The notes under the pieces are model-generated. The model was not told the DNA's origin and searched no databases. It saw only the letters and a list, made by a program, of their open reading frames with translations. A stretch of 22,357 bases of DNA, from positions 1-22,357 of the IMG/VR virus record IMGVR_UViG_3300046532_001643, one strand, 5' to 3'. Source of the stretch: a virus. Within the stretch, counting starts at the first letter, position 1. Each line of letters begins with the position of its first letter. A program made the position numbers and the translations under genes. Positions 5,672 to 21,429 of the stretch are shown here, in pieces.

Positions 5672-5691
5672 CTTTTTCGCTCGATGTAGTT

Positions 5692-5716
5692 TATGGGGTC
5701 TTAAACCCACCCCGTA
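5692..5716 (+). other. Hairpin upstream of the gene at 5760
   Basis: TATGGGG (5692-5698) can pair with CCCCGTA (5710-5716), with one G-U pair and an 11-nt loop. It lies between the small membrane-protein gene and the strong Shine-Dalgarno of the 5760 gene. There is no T-tract, so it may be a leader or processing hairpin or a weak terminator. No convincing promoter was seen between 5672 and 5759. Confidence 0.45.
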
Positions 5717-5759
5717 GTCACTAGAACTGACATAGGACTTCTAACTAAGGAGAAAACAA

Positions 5760-6317
5760 ATGGGAAGACCACTAAACAAAAAGTACTTCGGTACACCAAC
5801 AGATGCTGGCAGTCAAATTAAAGTTCAGTATCACAACGGTTCATCTTCAGTTAATGGATGGATTGTTAAACAAAAAGGTGCAAAGAGATTTGAATGCACC
5901 GACGGAACAACTCCACAAATTTGTGTATTAGCTGACAAAGCATCTGCCGCAATTGCCGCAGGTGAGATGACAATTACTATTAATGACGGTGGTGTTGCTC
6001 GCCAGGTGATTAAAATCGCCGGTAAAAAAGTAACACTTGACTCAGGCACAACAATTAACTGGGACTTCACTGGAACTGGTGGTGTCGTGGAAATTGAAGA
6101 TGCAGGTGGAGCAGTTATTAATGCTACAGCCGCAGTTGATGGAACCGCTTATGAGATCATCACAGCTGGTACTACTGACTATACAGGCTTTGGCTCTAGC
6201 GACAGTACAGTTGGCACAGTATTTACAATGGCCAATGCACCAGCAACTGGTACAGGTACAGTACGTGTTACTGCAGAAACAGCAGACGATTTTGAGAACG
6301 ACGACGCCACAACGTAA
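5760..6317 (+). CDS. Probable virion structural protein (M-G-R-P-L-N-K-K-Y-F-G type)
   Basis: This 185-residue protein begins M-G-R-P-L-N-K-K-Y-F-G, an N-terminus I associate with structural proteins of marine T4-like phages. It is beta-rich, with many Thr, Gly, Val and Ala. Residues about 128-170 carry a module of the type Y-x-I-x-x-x-G-T-T-D-(Y/F)-T followed by V-G-T-V-F-T and T-G-T-G-T-V, which recurs in tail and fibre proteins of marine phages. No membrane segment or catalytic motif is present. A very strong Shine-Dalgarno (AAGGAG, about 8 bases upstream of the ATG) and a perfect terminator after the gene suggest a highly expressed structural product. Whether it sits on head, tail or fibre cannot be decided here. 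Confidence 0.78.
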   Translation: MGRPLNKKYFGTPTDAGSQIKVQYHNGSSSVNGWIVKQKGAKRFECTDGTTPQICVLADKASAAIAAGEMTITINDGGVARQVIKIAGKKVTLDSGTTINWDFTGTGGVVEIEDAGGAVINATAAVDGTAYEIITAGTTDYTGFGSSDSTVGTVFTMANAPATGTGTVRVTAETADDFENDDATT

Positions 6318-13402: not shown

Positions 13403-15373
13403 ATGACTATTACGCCCACAGTATTAATTGCCGCTAACGGCATCTTAAATGATTCAGCATTTGCAGTTAATGCAGATTTTGCTACGGAAGTATTTGATTT
13501 ACAAGATTACGTTGTAAGTAATGTAGCCGGCACAGCAAACACTAGTATACTAAATGCAATTCTCGTACTTAAAGAAAACTGGGATACAAGTGTTGGTACT
13601 GACGTAACTGACCGAGACGCAATATGGGCTCTAATTAAAGATTATAAATTCTTACGTGGCAACCGTACTACAGCAACAGAAGCATTGACAGCAGATAGTA
13701 TTAGAGTAACAGATCCTAAATGGGTATGTGACAAGTACAACGACATACATGTATTGTTTAACGCCAGCGGAAACAAAACTTATAAAGTAAATTACTTACT
13801 ACAACAATTTGAACCTGTAGTATCGTCATCTGAAAAAATACATTTAAGTTTAGCTAAGTTTAAAAATGCAGTATGGGACGATATTAGTTTAGATATTAAA
13901 TCGCATGATGAGATTGCAAATAATGGTTTAATTCGAGTACTACTAACTGGTAGTGACGATCAAATTGATAACATTCAAGCACTTAAAGATAATTTACGTA
14001 CGGCAGAACGTCTCGATGATGTAGCAGGTCGTCGGCTTGCATATTTAAGCGAGTCATTACGAAATCTTGGAACCTTGTTTGATGCTAATGATTTGTCAAA
14101 TATGGGTAAGGCTAAAACGTTAATTGAAAACCTATATAGCCAGGGATTAAGTCAACTTGGTGGATTAAACTCAAAGTTACTAGAACTTGAAATTGATACG
14201 CTTGACGATATTAAAGAACGATACCTATTAGATATACTTAAAGAGGTAACAGGTAAAGCACTGGAAGAAATTATTGTGCGTACTAAAGTTACACTACCAG
14301 ATACAGCAAGAGTTACTTCGTTAGCTGACTTGTTAGATCCTAATAATCTGTTTACTACAGAGGCCTTAGCAAATCTTCCAAGCAATACACTAGCAGGATT
14401 GGCGTCGGTATTAAATAATATTTCCGGCAAATTTGAAACATTAGCACAGGTTGCTGACATGTTAGACTCAATTGAAATACCAGTGTTGTCAAACCTAACA
14501 GTAGAATCACAGCCATTGCCAGTAACAGACTATAATGCTATATTAGCTCAAACTCCTAGAGGAACTGGGCTGTTTAATAATGCATTGATTACCGATTTTA
14601 TTAATCCTCTCACAGGAACTAATCTGTATACAGCAGTCAAAGTCTTTAATAAATTTAACGAAGCAGTTGAAACATTGCTTGGCTCTGCTACTATATATTC
14701 TCTTTCAGCAGTTAACCAAGCTAGCCAAACAACTGACACTTGGCGTAATAACTGGGTATCAGCATTAACTTCGATTATGTCATCAAGTTCTTGTGTATAT
14801 TGGTTAAGAAGATGCGAAGATGAATACGTAGATTTTTATAATCAGACTGAAACTACAGACAAACTTTTCCAATCATTTTTTAGTACTTCAGAAAGTTTAA
14901 TGAGTGCATGGGCTGGATGGACTAACGTAGCAGGTAAGTCAGATGATTCGTATGCAAGCTCAAGCAGACTAGTTAGTGGATTGCATCAATTTGGTGTTGA
15001 TTCAAGTAACTTAGGATACAACGATATGTTTCTTGGATTAGCAAGAGATAACCGATTTGGCGATGCAATAAAATCCGCATTAGCTGAAGGACGAATGGTT
15101 GTTACTGAATCAAGAAAAGGAAATAAGTTAAGCGGTAGTTTTAACGAAATTGAATACCGTCAAGAACTTGCAAAAACAAAACTAACTACAGCAACAAGTA
15201 AACGTAAATTAGCACGTATTGAATTAGATAAAATGATTGAAGATATTGCTAAAGGTGTTAACGTTGATGCTGATCTACAAGTTATTCTTAGATTGCGTGT
15301 AGAACAAACAGTTAGTCAAGAACGTTCACTTGCTAAACTAGTAGGTGTTAAAGTTAATCCATATTTGAAATAA
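13403..15373 (+). CDS. Large probable virion/baseplate protein, 656 residues
   Basis: I do not recognise a named family. The protein is mostly helical, with long Leu/Ile/Asp-rich segments (about 185-340, with repeated L-x-x-L patterns such as L-A-N-L-P-S-N-T-L-A-G-L), a Ser-rich central part (about 440-520) and a charged coiled-coil C-terminus (about 575-656). There is no signal peptide or membrane helix. Size, composition and position directly after the PAAR tip gene fit a tail or baseplate structural protein, and in marine T4-like phages large unassigned structural proteins are common near such genes. The ATG lies 5 nt after a late-like box with no Shine-Dalgarno. Its last 20 bases overlap the convergent metallopeptidase gene. 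Confidence 0.78.
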   Translation: MTITPTVLIAANGILNDSAFAVNADFATEVFDLQDYVVSNVAGTANTSILNAILVLKENWDTSVGTDVTDRDAIWALIKDYKFLRGNRTTATEALTADSIRVTDPKWVCDKYNDIHVLFNASGNKTYKVNYLLQQFEPVVSSSEKIHLSLAKFKNAVWDDISLDIKSHDEIANNGLIRVLLTGSDDQIDNIQALKDNLRTAERLDDVAGRRLAYLSESLRNLGTLFDANDLSNMGKAKTLIENLYSQGLSQLGGLNSKLLELEIDTLDDIKERYLLDILKEVTGKALEEIIVRTKVTLPDTARVTSLADLLDPNNLFTTEALANLPSNTLAGLASVLNNISGKFETLAQVADMLDSIEIPVLSNLTVESQPLPVTDYNAILAQTPRGTGLFNNALITDFINPLTGTNLYTAVKVFNKFNEAVETLLGSATIYSLSAVNQASQTTDTWRNNWVSALTSIMSSSSCVYWLRRCEDEYVDFYNQTETTDKLFQSFFSTSESLMSAWAGWTNVAGKSDDSYASSSRLVSGLHQFGVDSSNLGYNDMFLGLARDNRFGDAIKSALAEGRMVVTESRKGNKLSGSFNEIEYRQELAKTKLTTATSKRKLARIELDKMIEDIAKGVNVDADLQVILRLRVEQTVSQERSLAKLVGVKVNPYLK

Positions 15374-18534: not shown

Positions 18535-18910
18535 TAACTTCATTACCCCACCAGATTTTATTGAAGATGATAACCACTCTGTATTACTAGTTGATCCGTC
18601 AGAGGCCGATGTAGTTGAAATATCATTGCTTTGTAAGCAGGTAGGAACAGACTTTAACGTTTACATATACTTAGAACAGTATGATGACTTAAAATGGCTA
18701 GAAGAAGGCTTCAATAGGTCAGATGCAGTGTGTATTAATACACAACCCAACGAAATATCTAAGGTTAAAGACCAATTAGTCGAACACTTTAAATCTCACC
18801 ATTACGGTCCGAAGAGATTCTTGGACATTAACCGTCGCATGGATAATCCAATAGAGTACTTTATCAATTATGTCAAAATTAAATCAACCAGCACATTCAC
18901 TGATCTGTAA
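18527..18910 (+). CDS. Unknown protein, 127 residues
   Basis: No family is recognised. The sequence suggests an alpha/beta fold: S-V-L-L-V-D-P-S-E-A-D-V-V-E-I-S-L-L at about 18-35, then F-N-V-Y-I-Y-L, a W-L-E-E-G-F helix, A-V-C-I-N-T-Q, and a basic segment K-S-H-H-Y-G-P-K-R-F. The alternation of strand and helix vaguely resembles a receiver-like or Rossmann-like protein, but no active-site pattern is convincing. It begins within the last 8 bases of the membrane-protein gene and overlaps the ClpX-like gene by 41 bases, so the three are tightly linked and probably co-translated. Position suggests a partner of either neighbour; function is unknown. Confidence 0.72.
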   Translation: MYSNFITPPDFIEDDNHSVLLVDPSEADVVEISLLCKQVGTDFNVYIYLEQYDDLKWLEEGFNRSDAVCINTQPNEISKVKDQLVEHFKSHHYGPKRFLDINRRMDNPIEYFINYVKIKSTSTFTDL

Positions 18911-20117
18911 TTTTTGTGAGAAAACAAAAAAAGAAGTCAGTAAACTTATTGTCTCCAACGGTGCGGCAATATGCAATGAATGTATAGAGACTTGCTCGGG
19001 TATTCTTACTAACGAGAAGTTTGCCTTGCGGCGACATAAGTCCGGCATTTTAAAGACTCTAGACCCTAAAAAAGTTAAAAAACACCTCGACGAGTACATC
19101 ATTGGCCAAGACGGAGCTAAAGAAGCTATCAGTATAGCTATTATTAATCATTATAAACGATTATTCTTTCCAACTACAATTGAAGTAGAAAAAAGTAATA
19201 TAATAATTCATGGTCCAACTGGCAACGGCAAAACTATGTTAGCCAAGACAGTAGCTAAATTCCTTGAAGTTCCATTTGTTGTTTGTGATGCTACTACATT
19301 AACTGAAGCAGGTTATATAGGCGAAGATGCAACTAGTGTTCTTGAACGTTTAATGGCTGTAGCTGGTGGGGACATCGAGCATGCAGAACGTGGAATTATT
19401 TTCATTGATGAAATTGATAAGATTGGGCGGCAAGCAGATGCTCATGGCAGTATTGGGCGTGACGTTGGTGGAGAAGGTGTGCAACAAAGTCTCCTTAAAA
19501 TAATTGAAGGCGGCGAAGTAAAGATATTGTATGGTGACGGTCATAAAGAAGAATTAGAATTTAACACTAAAGATATATTGTTTATATGTGCCGGTGCATT
19601 TCCTGATCTAGATAAAATTGCAATTAGAAACACAACAGAATCATCAATGGGATTTGGTTCACATCTTCATGCACCCACGGATGAAACTGTTATTCCTAAA
19701 GTTAGAGACTTTGTGCAGTATGGCATGATCCCTGAATTCATGGGACGTTTTCCAATTACAATTCCGGTGTTTGAACTAACAAAAGAAGAGATGCGTTTAG
19801 TATTAACTCAGCCTAAAAATAATCTTATTGAACAATATAATTTTTATTTTGGTGTTGATGATATTATATTAGACTTGACATCAACTGGAATTGATGCTAT
19901 AGTTAGTATAACTAATAAAGAGAAGATTGGCGCACGAGGACTTCGTGCTACGTTAGAAACTGTATTGCAATCTTATATGTTTAATATTATTGAATATAAG
20001 AACGCAAATGTAAGTAAAATTACACTTGACGGTGATAGTATTCTAATAGGGGCAACGGCAAAACTTGAATATCATGAAAAGGATGAAAATGAGTTATCAA
20101 ACACAATTGAACTTTGA
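18870..20117 (+). CDS. clpX: ClpX-like AAA+ unfoldase
   Basis: The 415-residue protein is a full-length ClpX relative. An N-terminal zinc-binding domain has C13-x-x-C16 and C35-x-x-C38, the part that in ClpX binds adaptors. The AAA+ module has Walker A G-P-T-G-N-G-K-T (115-122), pore loop G-Y-I-G (148-151), Walker B I-I-F-I-D-E (176-181), arginine finger R293 (F-M-G-R-F-P) and sensor-2 G-A-R-G-L-R (354-359). The ClpP-docking loop reads M-G-F-G (260-263) where bacterial ClpX has I/L-G-F, so docking to host ClpP remains plausible. The R-K-H entry-pore loop is reduced: only Y-G-D-G-H-K is left near 221-226. It would unfold selected proteins, alone or for host ClpP. No Shine-Dalgarno is seen, so translation is probably coupled to the gene it overlaps. 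Confidence 0.93.
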   Translation: MSKLNQPAHSLICNFCEKTKKEVSKLIVSNGAAICNECIETCSGILTNEKFALRRHKSGILKTLDPKKVKKHLDEYIIGQDGAKEAISIAIINHYKRLFFPTTIEVEKSNIIIHGPTGNGKTMLAKTVAKFLEVPFVVCDATTLTEAGYIGEDATSVLERLMAVAGGDIEHAERGIIFIDEIDKIGRQADAHGSIGRDVGGEGVQQSLLKIIEGGEVKILYGDGHKEELEFNTKDILFICAGAFPDLDKIAIRNTTESSMGFGSHLHAPTDETVIPKVRDFVQYGMIPEFMGRFPITIPVFELTKEEMRLVLTQPKNNLIEQYNFYFGVDDIILDLTSTGIDAIVSITNKEKIGARGLRATLETVLQSYMFNIIEYKNANVSKITLDGDSILIGATAKLEYHEKDENELSNTIEL

Positions 20118-20448
20118 GTTTTACAACGACACAGAAGAACAATATACACTTGATCTTAATAATTCTGGTACTATTAATATAACAGGTTCATATGGCTATA
20201 TCAACACTGGTGCAATTACTATGACCTCAACTACTATGTCGCCATCAATAATTACTCTTGGGCCTTCGACTGCTACATACGATGAACTTGATGTACGTGT
20301 TCTTAAAGTTGACGGGCATGATATTAGCGAAACACTTAGTCTTATTTGTGATAGACTCGCAATATTAGTACGTAATGACCATGAAGAATTCAATGCTCTT
20401 AATGATGCTTACCTAAAATATAAACTTTTAGAGAAATTGGTAAAATAA
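20089..20448 (+). CDS. Unknown protein, 119 residues, conserved C-terminal motif
   Basis: I do not know its function. The ATG at 20089 is preferred over an in-frame TTG at 20065 because AAAAGGA lies just upstream; the gene begins inside the clpX-like gene and overlaps it by 29 bases. The N-terminal half is beta-rich with repeated Thr/Gly/Ser (S-G-T-I-N-I-T-G-S-Y-G-Y-I-N-T-G, M-T-S-T-T-M-S-P-S). The C-terminal part (about 75-119) has V-L-K-V-D-G-H-D-I, then D-R-L-A-I-L-V and A-L-N-D-A-Y-L-K-Y-K-L-L-E-K-L, which I recall as a recurring ending of small proteins in marine T4-like phages. The repeat-like N-terminus suggests a fibre- or virion-type protein, unconfirmed. Confidence 0.75.
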   Translation: MSYQTQLNFEFYNDTEEQYTLDLNNSGTINITGSYGYINTGAITMTSTTMSPSIITLGPSTATYDELDVRVLKVDGHDISETLSLICDRLAILVRNDHEEFNALNDAYLKYKLLEKLVK

Positions 20449-20449
20449 T

Positions 20450-20457
20450 CATAAATA
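20450..20457 (+). promoter_or_regulatory. Late-promoter-like box upstream of hsp20 (CATAAATA)
   Basis: This third exact copy of the octamer found at 7452 and 16085 lies 16 bases upstream of a sigma70-type promoter for the same gene. Together they would allow hsp20 expression both early and late, but a late transcript would carry a longer leader. Confidence 0.45.
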
Positions 20458-20472
20458 ATTTTGTAGTTGCTC

Positions 20473-20503
20473 TTGACTTTTACCGTAAGAATAACTATAT
20501 AAT
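20473..20503 (+). promoter_or_regulatory. sigma70-type promoter of hsp20
   Basis: TTGACT (20473-20478) is followed by TATAAT (20498-20503) at 19 bp or by the overlapping TATATA (20496-20501) at the optimal 17 bp. The predicted start is near 20508-20510, giving a leader of about 55 nt that begins at the first hairpin of the putative thermosensor. Confidence 0.75.
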
Positions 20504-20506
20504 ACA

Positions 20507-20563
20507 AGTAGGATGCTGATAATCAGATCTTACTACATATCTTGCTTATTAAAGGAGAACTAA
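20507..20563 (+). promoter_or_regulatory. ROSE-like RNA thermometer candidate in the hsp20 5' leader
   Basis: Two hairpins can form. Hairpin 1 pairs AGTAGGAT (20507-20514) with ATCTTACT (20527-20534), 8 bp with one G-U pair, topped by a CTG/CAG extension. Hairpin 2 pairs TCTTGCT (20540-20546) with the Shine-Dalgarno AGGAGA (20553-20558) across a 6-nt loop, leaving G20544 unpaired and U43-G55 as a wobble pair. The UUGCU-opposite-AGGA arrangement with a bulged G is the hallmark of ROSE elements, which melt on warming and control small heat-shock genes in alpha- and gammaproteobacteria. Here it precedes an hsp20 gene, the expected target. This is a hand-drawn fold; no energy was calculated. Confidence 0.6.
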
Positions 20564-20564
20564 A

Positions 20565-20999
20565 ATGACAAGAATCACAACCCTCGACCTTCACAAACTC
20601 GCCCCGTATGCACTAGGTTTTAATGACCTATTTAAAGGACTTCAACACCATGTTGAACATCCGGCACAACAAGGGTTTCCACCTTACAACATTCGACAAG
20701 AAGACAACAAGTTCCAAATTGAAATGGCACTTGCCGGCGTAGAACTATCTGACCTTGATATTGAAACTGCCGACAGTGTATTGAGTATTACTCATGCACC
20801 TGAAACCGAAGATGAAAACCACGAGAATACAATTCTACACAGAGGAATTGCAATCCGTAAATTTAGACGTAGCTTTACACTTGCAGAAGATGTAATCGTT
20901 AATGGTGCAAGAATGAAGAACGGTATGTTATATATCGAACTTGAGCAAATTGTTCCTGAAGAAAAGAAACCCAAAAAGATTGCAATTTCTTCTAGTTAA
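20565..20999 (+). CDS. Small heat-shock protein Hsp20 (alpha-crystallin family)
   Basis: This 144-residue protein has the family's layout: a short N-terminal arm (1-38), an alpha-crystallin domain (about 39-130) with Y-N-I-R, E-M-A-L-A-G-V-E-L-S-D-L-D-I-E, the loop R-G-I-A-I-R-K-F-R-R-S-F (93-104) and the signature A-R-M-K-N-G-M-L-Y-I-E-L (115-126), and a C-terminal I-A-I (139-141) of the I-x-I type that links dimers. It is an ATP-independent holdase that keeps unfolding proteins soluble. It is expected to form oligomers in the host cytoplasm. Hsp20 genes are a known feature of marine T4-like phages and may aid virion assembly. The gene has its own sigma70-type promoter, a strong Shine-Dalgarno and a ROSE-like leader, and lies between clpX-like and clpS-like genes. 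Confidence 0.95.
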   Translation: MTRITTLDLHKLAPYALGFNDLFKGLQHHVEHPAQQGFPPYNIRQEDNKFQIEMALAGVELSDLDIETADSVLSITHAPETEDENHENTILHRGIAIRKFRRSFTLAEDVIVNGARMKNGMLYIELEQIVPEEKKPKKIAISSS

Positions 21000-21019
21000 T
21001 AGTATACTCATAAAGTAAA

Positions 21020-21061
21020 ATGTGTACGGAACCTCTTTATATTAATTGGTTCCGTACATAT
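21020..21061 (+). terminator. Long perfect inverted repeat between hsp20 and clpS, possible terminator
   Basis: TGTACGGAACC (21023-21033) and GGTTCCGTACA (21048-21058) are an 11-bp perfect inverted repeat, extendable outward by three weaker pairs, with a 14-nt loop. It lies 24 bases after the hsp20 stop. No T-tract follows, so intrinsic termination would be inefficient; it may instead protect the hsp20 mRNA 3' end or bind a regulator. Confidence 0.5.
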
Positions 21062-21066
21062 ACTAT

Positions 21067-21074
21067 GTTAAATA
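21067..21074 (+). promoter_or_regulatory. Weak late-promoter-like box before clpS (GTTAAATA)
   Basis: The TAAATA core lies just after the inverted repeat and would place a transcript start near 21080, with AGGGG (21089-21093) as Shine-Dalgarno for the ATG at 21103. Only the core matches, so this is tentative. Confidence 0.3.
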
Positions 21075-21102
21075 TAACTATTAAGATTAGGGGTTAAAAA
21101 TA

Positions 21103-21429
21103 ATGTCGTCAGAAGCGTCACCAGACCACGTAGAAGTGGTAAAGCAAAAGACAAAAGTAAAACAGAATGTTAGAGAACCTGTTCGATTTAAAGTTATATA
21201 CATTAATGATGAAGTCACTACAACCGAGTTTGTAGTTGAAACACTCAAAACAATATTTGATTATGACGAACAACCTGCACTAGCACTTACACAAAAGATC
21301 CACGCAGACGGTACAGCGGTAGTAGCAGTATTACCGTTTGAAATGGCAGAGCAAAAAGGTGTCGAGGTTACAGTTTTAGCACGTAACCATGGATTTCCTT
21401 TGCAAGTAAAAATTGAACCGGATAATTAA
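21103..21429 (+). CDS. clpS: ClpS-like N-degron adaptor
   Basis: This 108-residue protein matches ClpS from about residue 28: F-K-V-I-Y-I-N-D-E-V-T-T-T-E-F-V aligns with the E. coli stretch containing N34-D35-D36 and T38, then comes the helix V-E-T-L-K-T-I-F, then K-I-H67 (equivalent to H66) and a C-terminal strand. ClpS binds proteins with destabilising N-terminal residues and delivers them to ClpA/ClpC for ClpP. The pocket residues N35, D36, T39 and H67 are kept, but D36 of E. coli is E37 here and the gatekeeper M40 is T41, which may relax specificity. The first 25 residues form a charged extension. Its nearness to the ClpX-like gene suggests joint action on proteolysis, although ClpS normally does not pair with ClpX. 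Confidence 0.88.
   Translation: MSSEASPDHVEVVKQKTKVKQNVREPVRFKVIYINDEVTTTEFVVETLKTIFDYDEQPALALTQKIHADGTAVVAVLPFEMAEQKGVEVTVLARNHGFPLQVKIEPDN

Follow-up and report, generated by a model that had tools for sequence, protein, structure and literature searches.

The leader of an hsp20 gene in a tailed phage is very likely a two-hairpin RNA thermometer of the ROSE-like kind. The gene lies on a 22,357-base fragment (IMG/VR record IMGVR_UViG_3300046532_001643; the whole fragment is called the window here), and the fold of its leader is conserved with compensatory changes and is specific to positions before phage hsp20, dnaK and groES genes. Structure prediction folded the 57 bases 5′ of hsp20 into two hairpins (20507–20558). 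Hairpin II, UCUU[G]CUU-AUUA-AAGGAGA, has the Shine–Dalgarno sequence as its 3′ strand and consists of the pairs U40–A58, C41–G57, U42–A56, U43·G55, C45–G54, U46–A53 and U47–A52 with G44 bulged, which places UUGCU (20542–20546) opposite AGGA (20553–20556). An initial annotation of this DNA had described two hairpins, the G bulge and the closing pairs C41–G57 and U40–A58, all of which sequence and folding reproduced pair for pair. It had also stated that other strong Shine–Dalgarno leaders of the window have no UUGCU opposite, and we found the same: U(U/C)GCU faces the Shine–Dalgarno sequence in one of the seven window genes that have one, namely hsp20, and the leaders without it include those of the genes at 2404 and 5760.

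We gathered related leaders by protein similarity alone, so that leader sequence was not a selection criterion. The set was drawn from hsp20 genes of three clades (sought with single-protein queries from each), phage DnaK proteins and six cultured phages, and came to 216 non-redundant leaders (161 hsp20 and 55 dnaK). An anchor for the bulged G, YYGC located 5–12 bases 5′ of GGAG, was present in 213 of the 216; of the three leaders lacking it, one is on a truncated contig and one has an A replacing the G. The exact U(U/C)GCU motif lies opposite the Shine–Dalgarno sequence in 208 of the 216. The five-base core reads UUGCU in 187 leaders, UCGCU in 21, UUGCA in 4 and UUGCG in 1, in agreement with the published ROSE consensus U(U/C)GCU (PMC3669281; PMC11342760). 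Within the same loci, the motif precedes 202 of 207 hsp20 genes and 55 of 57 dnaK genes but only 2 of 243 other genes with a Shine–Dalgarno sequence, one of which is groES. The genes dnaK and hsp20 are often arranged in tandem, and both then carry an element of their own (L100 and L156). The element is also found in 15 of the 16 isolates examined, including S-PM2, Syn9, P-SSM4, HTVC008M and Paride, and is absent from the remaining one, S-TIM61. One dnaK leader (L281) reads UCUUACU, with A in place of the bulged G, so the bulge is retained despite the base change.

Covariance models gave a similar picture. Model R1, built from 24 relatives with the window left out, matched the window once, at 20508–20567 (36.6 bits, E = 2e-6). 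Its 103 matches in 454 kb of phage loci comprise 77 before hsp20, 20 before dnaK and 2 before groES. Of the other four, two lie 5′ of genes for a small helical protein, one is partial and precedes an unknown gene, and the last is noise. A broader model, R2, was run on 22 sequences, either complete phage records or large phage contigs, and matched all of them; among matches with E < 0.005 and a readable downstream gene, almost all precede hsp20 or dnaK, and one precedes a gene for the small helical protein. A motif scan of IMG/VR with CTTGCTTN{2,6}AAGGAGA, which applied no gene criterion, returned at least 90 hsp20 genes among the 123 matches listed, together with dnaK, groES and the small protein; the other matches listed mostly lack a start codon or hairpin I. 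A chance origin of the element is excluded by its recovery with a model built only from relatives, its near-universal presence in hsp20 and dnaK leaders and its near-absence elsewhere. The small helical proteins are phasin-like, 65–92 amino acids long, and share the two-hairpin leader (L090:2534–2803 on the minus strand, L140:4207–4401 and L556). They had no convincing match in Pfam or PHROG, and possibly represent a further chaperone-like gene.

The check for compensatory changes in related leaders found them, and the UUGCU/AGGA pairing is conserved. Because the Shine–Dalgarno sequence is constrained, variation in hairpin II is limited to its outer and upper pairs, and these co-vary. The outer pair is U–A in 149 leaders; where the 3′ base is G it is matched by C in 8 of 8 leaders, and where it is U it is matched by A in 7 of 7. 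Examples are CCUUGCAU..AUGGAGG (L042) and ACUUGCUA..UAGGAGU (L043). The sequence of hairpin I varies freely while its stem and bulged G are kept: the bulge was predicted in 156 of 212 folds of relatives, compared with 1.3% of shuffles, and the arms pair far above shuffled values with no pairing filter applied. A first MAFFT alignment of 30 leaders misplaced hairpin I, and a more uniform seed was used instead. When 99 distinct sequences were aligned with a model, 92.8% of cells were paired, both sides had changed in 287 cells (80 when shuffled), and the covariation score for the whole structure was 0.518, compared with 0.166 for shuffled and at most 0.149 for slid controls. Every one of the eight pairs in hairpin I shows double changes, as do four of the seven in hairpin II. 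As this alignment was fitted to the structure, the model-based counts favour the structure, and the anchor-based and filter-free counts are free of that bias.

The initial annotation had assigned the leader to the ROSE type, and this assignment is supported by U(U/C)GCU opposite the Shine–Dalgarno sequence, the bulged G, the two hairpins, the hsp20 gene downstream, the compensatory changes and sub-threshold matches of sister leaders to an Rfam ROSE model. The closest known element is the ROSE_3 element of Pseudomonas ibpA. In both, a leader of about 60 nucleotides that precedes a small heat-shock gene holds two hairpins: hairpin I has the form GAUGCC..GGGUC with a bulged G, and hairpin II places U(U/C)GCU against AGGA. 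Unlike its Pseudomonas counterpart, the phage element resides in phage genomes behind phage-type promoters, also precedes dnaK and groES, and has a shorter, A/U-richer hairpin II. The Pseudomonas element has been shown to respond to warming through the melting of hairpin II, with hairpin I remaining folded; hairpin II alone is enough for thermosensing, and a leader deprived of the bulged G is no longer induced (PMC3669281). The ROSE_2 element of Escherichia coli ibpA and the Bradyrhizobium ROSE1 element share with the phage element the U(U/C)GCU/Shine–Dalgarno hairpin, the bulged G and the small heat-shock gene, but have three or four hairpins rather than two. The phage model gave a weak match (11.8 bits) at the exact site in the E. 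coli ibpA leader. It also scored 19.9 bits on the E. coli ibpB leader (L202:2897–2975, minus strand), which fits a short ROSE-like element in the leader of that operon's second gene.

On the basis of this structure we propose the following mechanism. The transcript probably begins at the base of hairpin I, near 20508–20511, because TTGACT and TATATAATA form a probable promoter here and TATAAATA-like boxes occur in relatives: such a box (at most one mismatch) ends 2–9 nucleotides 5′ of hairpin I in 38 of 87 relatives' leaders and in 9% of shuffles. A literature search found no hsp20 transcription start data for Syn9 or PA5oct. In a cool cell, hairpin II would pair UCUUGCUU with the Shine–Dalgarno sequence AAGGAGA, a sequestration that the covariation supports, and the conserved bulged G would keep the stem weak. 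Warming would open hairpin II and let ribosomes bind and Hsp20 be made, while hairpin I would stay folded as a 5′ cap or folding guide. The benefit may be a supply of chaperone for virion assembly or host survival under warm conditions. We infer that hairpin II opens with temperature from the biology of ROSE elements and from its marginal predicted stability: the predicted ΔG37 is −1.7 kcal/mol in the window, with a median of −2.8 across leaders and −4.6 for the E. coli ibpA hairpin.

Folding across 15–45 °C, which had been suggested as a check, gave a mixed result. The hairpin that covers the Shine–Dalgarno sequence was predicted, and in the leader alone that sequence opens from 5% at 15 °C to 32% at 45 °C. 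Several observations nevertheless weigh against a thermometer. When 12 or more coding bases of the window sequence are added, the predicted minimum-energy fold trades hairpin II for a helix across the start codon, between UCUUG.UUAUU (20540–20550) and AAUGACAAGA (20564–20573). Predicted melting is broad, so that no sharp melting temperature can be derived; nearest-neighbour folding yields broad curves and does not represent the non-canonical pairs of ROSE elements. The Rfam ROSE models gave no match in the window, and every score of a phage leader fell below the gathering cut-offs. In addition, the structure could serve a protein regulator rather than heat sensing.

The start-codon helix was set aside as the true structure. 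It requires the codons ACA AGA and is possible in some hsp20 genes only; CAAG occurs within codons 2–6 of 29 of 160 hsp20 genes and after none of 53 dnaK leaders, so the helix is not the structure that relatives conserve. The proposed Rfam scan was likewise divided: the window itself was unmatched, but sister leaders resemble ROSE_3 (RF02523) below its gathering cut-off of 43 bits, with full-length matches of 33.6 bits for L158, 25.8 bits for a dnaK leader and 17–25 or 26 bits for others. Searched at E up to 10, RF00435 (ROSE) found nothing in 16 phage records, and RF01832 (ROSE_2) matched no phage leader while scoring 100.4 bits on the positive control, E. coli ibpA. The sub-threshold likeness to ROSE_3, with ROSE and ROSE_2 unmatched, indicates a branch built like ROSE that current Rfam models do not recognize. 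At curated cut-offs, the sole Rfam match over the window was the unrelated freshwater-2 RNA at 5673–5762. We also rejected freshwater-2 (RF02980) as an identity for the hsp20 leader (14.5 versus 49.9 bits), as that match is due to a generic Shine–Dalgarno tail.

A serious alternative, though less likely than a thermometer, is that the leader is mainly a target of autorepression, in which Hsp20 would bind its own leader as well as the dnaK and groES leaders and prevent translation until it is titrated by unfolded proteins. Such a switch would read protein damage during infection instead of temperature, and may work together with a thermometer. There is a precedent in E. coli, in which IbpA binds its ROSE-bearing 5′ untranslated region and represses itself until titrated by aggregates, an activity that needs R93 (PMC10474464). 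At the position of R93, Hsp20 of the window and most aligned phage Hsp20 proteins have arginine, two have lysine, and the non-repressing IbpB has glutamine. Together with the E. coli precedent, this arginine suggests that the phage element could report unfolded protein as well as temperature. Moreover, hairpin I may have some other role, as phages have conserved it even though the Pseudomonas element can sense temperature with hairpin II alone. However, the arginine may be kept for other reasons, and a thermosensor would be expected to conserve U(U/C)GCU and the bulged G as strictly as is observed.

Less probable still is a temperature-independent attenuator or 5′ stabilizer, which would hold expression at a low constant level or protect late mRNA, its likeness to ROSE being merely inherited with a bacterial hsp20 gene. 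A strong hairpin directly 3′ of a late-promoter-like box in many relatives would suit such a role, as would the little temperature change that many marine hosts meet. Inheritance itself has some basis: hsp20 leaders of alpha- and beta-proteobacteria share the motif (66 of 79 by a rough pattern), some beta-proteobacterial ones score 20–40 bits with the phage model, and phages probably acquired the hsp20 gene and its leader together. Yet inheritance alone would not keep the Shine–Dalgarno pairing and the bulge in highly diverged phages, nor spread both to dnaK and groES. Finally, we give almost no credence to chance pairing, whereby any A/T-rich leader with a Shine–Dalgarno sequence could be folded this way; isolated hairpin II is weak and the window sequence has a competing fold, but covariation, conservation and gene specificity refute it.

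A virus carrying a ROSE-like thermometer had been expected to be unusual; instead, the element is common in phages and also precedes dnaK and groES. Our search of the open-licence literature turned up no previous description of ROSE elements in phages, and a paper on the small heat-shock proteins of cyanophages makes no mention of thermometers. The phage thermometers found previously are single cases with other motifs. The fourU thermometer of blyA in the Bacillus prophage SPbeta (PMC10586365) is also phage-borne but has a different motif and controls a lysis gene, and the thermometer before a sigma-70 gene shared with a Caudoviricetes record (cited in PMC11342760) likewise differs in motif and gene; neither belongs to a conserved chaperone set, unlike the phage ROSE-like element. 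The hsp17 thermometer of Synechocystis, a relative of cyanophage hosts, also controls a small heat-shock gene but is described as a single hairpin with a 1×3 internal bulge between start-codon and ribosome-binding-site stems (PMC4477652). What is new here is that phages carry a ROSE-like element and that it reaches beyond hsp20 to dnaK and groES. Most known RNA thermometers are bacterial; in the phages studied here, an element of the ROSE type is a regular feature of hsp20, dnaK and groES. In many viruses, the making of chaperones is probably coupled to heat or protein stress. As a tentative extension, many large tailed phages may share a chaperone regulon of hsp20, dnaK, groES and the small helical protein, with a ROSE-type switch on each gene. 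Such a switch may respond to temperature as well as to Hsp20 that unfolded protein frees or consumes, and the virus would then match its chaperones to the state of protein folding in its host cell. The gene hsp20 is a core gene of T4-like cyanophages. The element offers a concrete mechanism by which warming could alter how much chaperone is made by phages that are abundant in the sea and in fresh water. The presence of the element in cultured phages (Paride and PA5oct on Pseudomonas aeruginosa; S-PM2 and Syn9 on Synechococcus) makes it testable now, and the several hundred natural variants provide a set for studying how ROSE stems are tuned.

Features of the hsp20 locus in the window
Feature	Coordinates	Strand	Evidence
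Probable promoter	20473..20504	+	TTGACT (20473-20478) and TATATAATA (20496-20504)
Hairpin I, stable stem with bulged G20515 (UGC/GA motif)	20507..20534	+	Fold, covariation
Hairpin II, predicted to sequester the Shine-Dalgarno sequence: anti-Shine-Dalgarno UCUUGCUU, loop AUUA, AAGGAGA; bulged G20544	20540..20558	+	Fold, covariation, model R1
Shine-Dalgarno sequence AAGGAGA	20552..20558	+	Sequence
hsp20, IbpA-type small heat-shock protein, 144 amino acids, regulated gene	20565..20999	+	Pfam PF00011 HSP20, 3.3e-17

Elsewhere in the window, the freshwater-2 RNA mentioned above (RF02980; plus strand, 59.2 bits) provides this phage with a second structured leader; it ends at the start codon of an open reading frame (5760–6317) for a 185-amino-acid protein with no PHROG match. 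A 656-amino-acid open reading frame at 13403–15373 had no match among 50,697 phage records or PHROGs. Around the hsp20 gene itself, clpX, hsp20 and clpS are clustered at 18870–21429, and the same order is found in the Pseudomonas jumbo phage Callisto; in Paride, hsp20 is followed by a gene annotated as an ATP-dependent protease. The presence of ClpX and ClpS, with no ClpP in view, suggests that the host protease is redirected.
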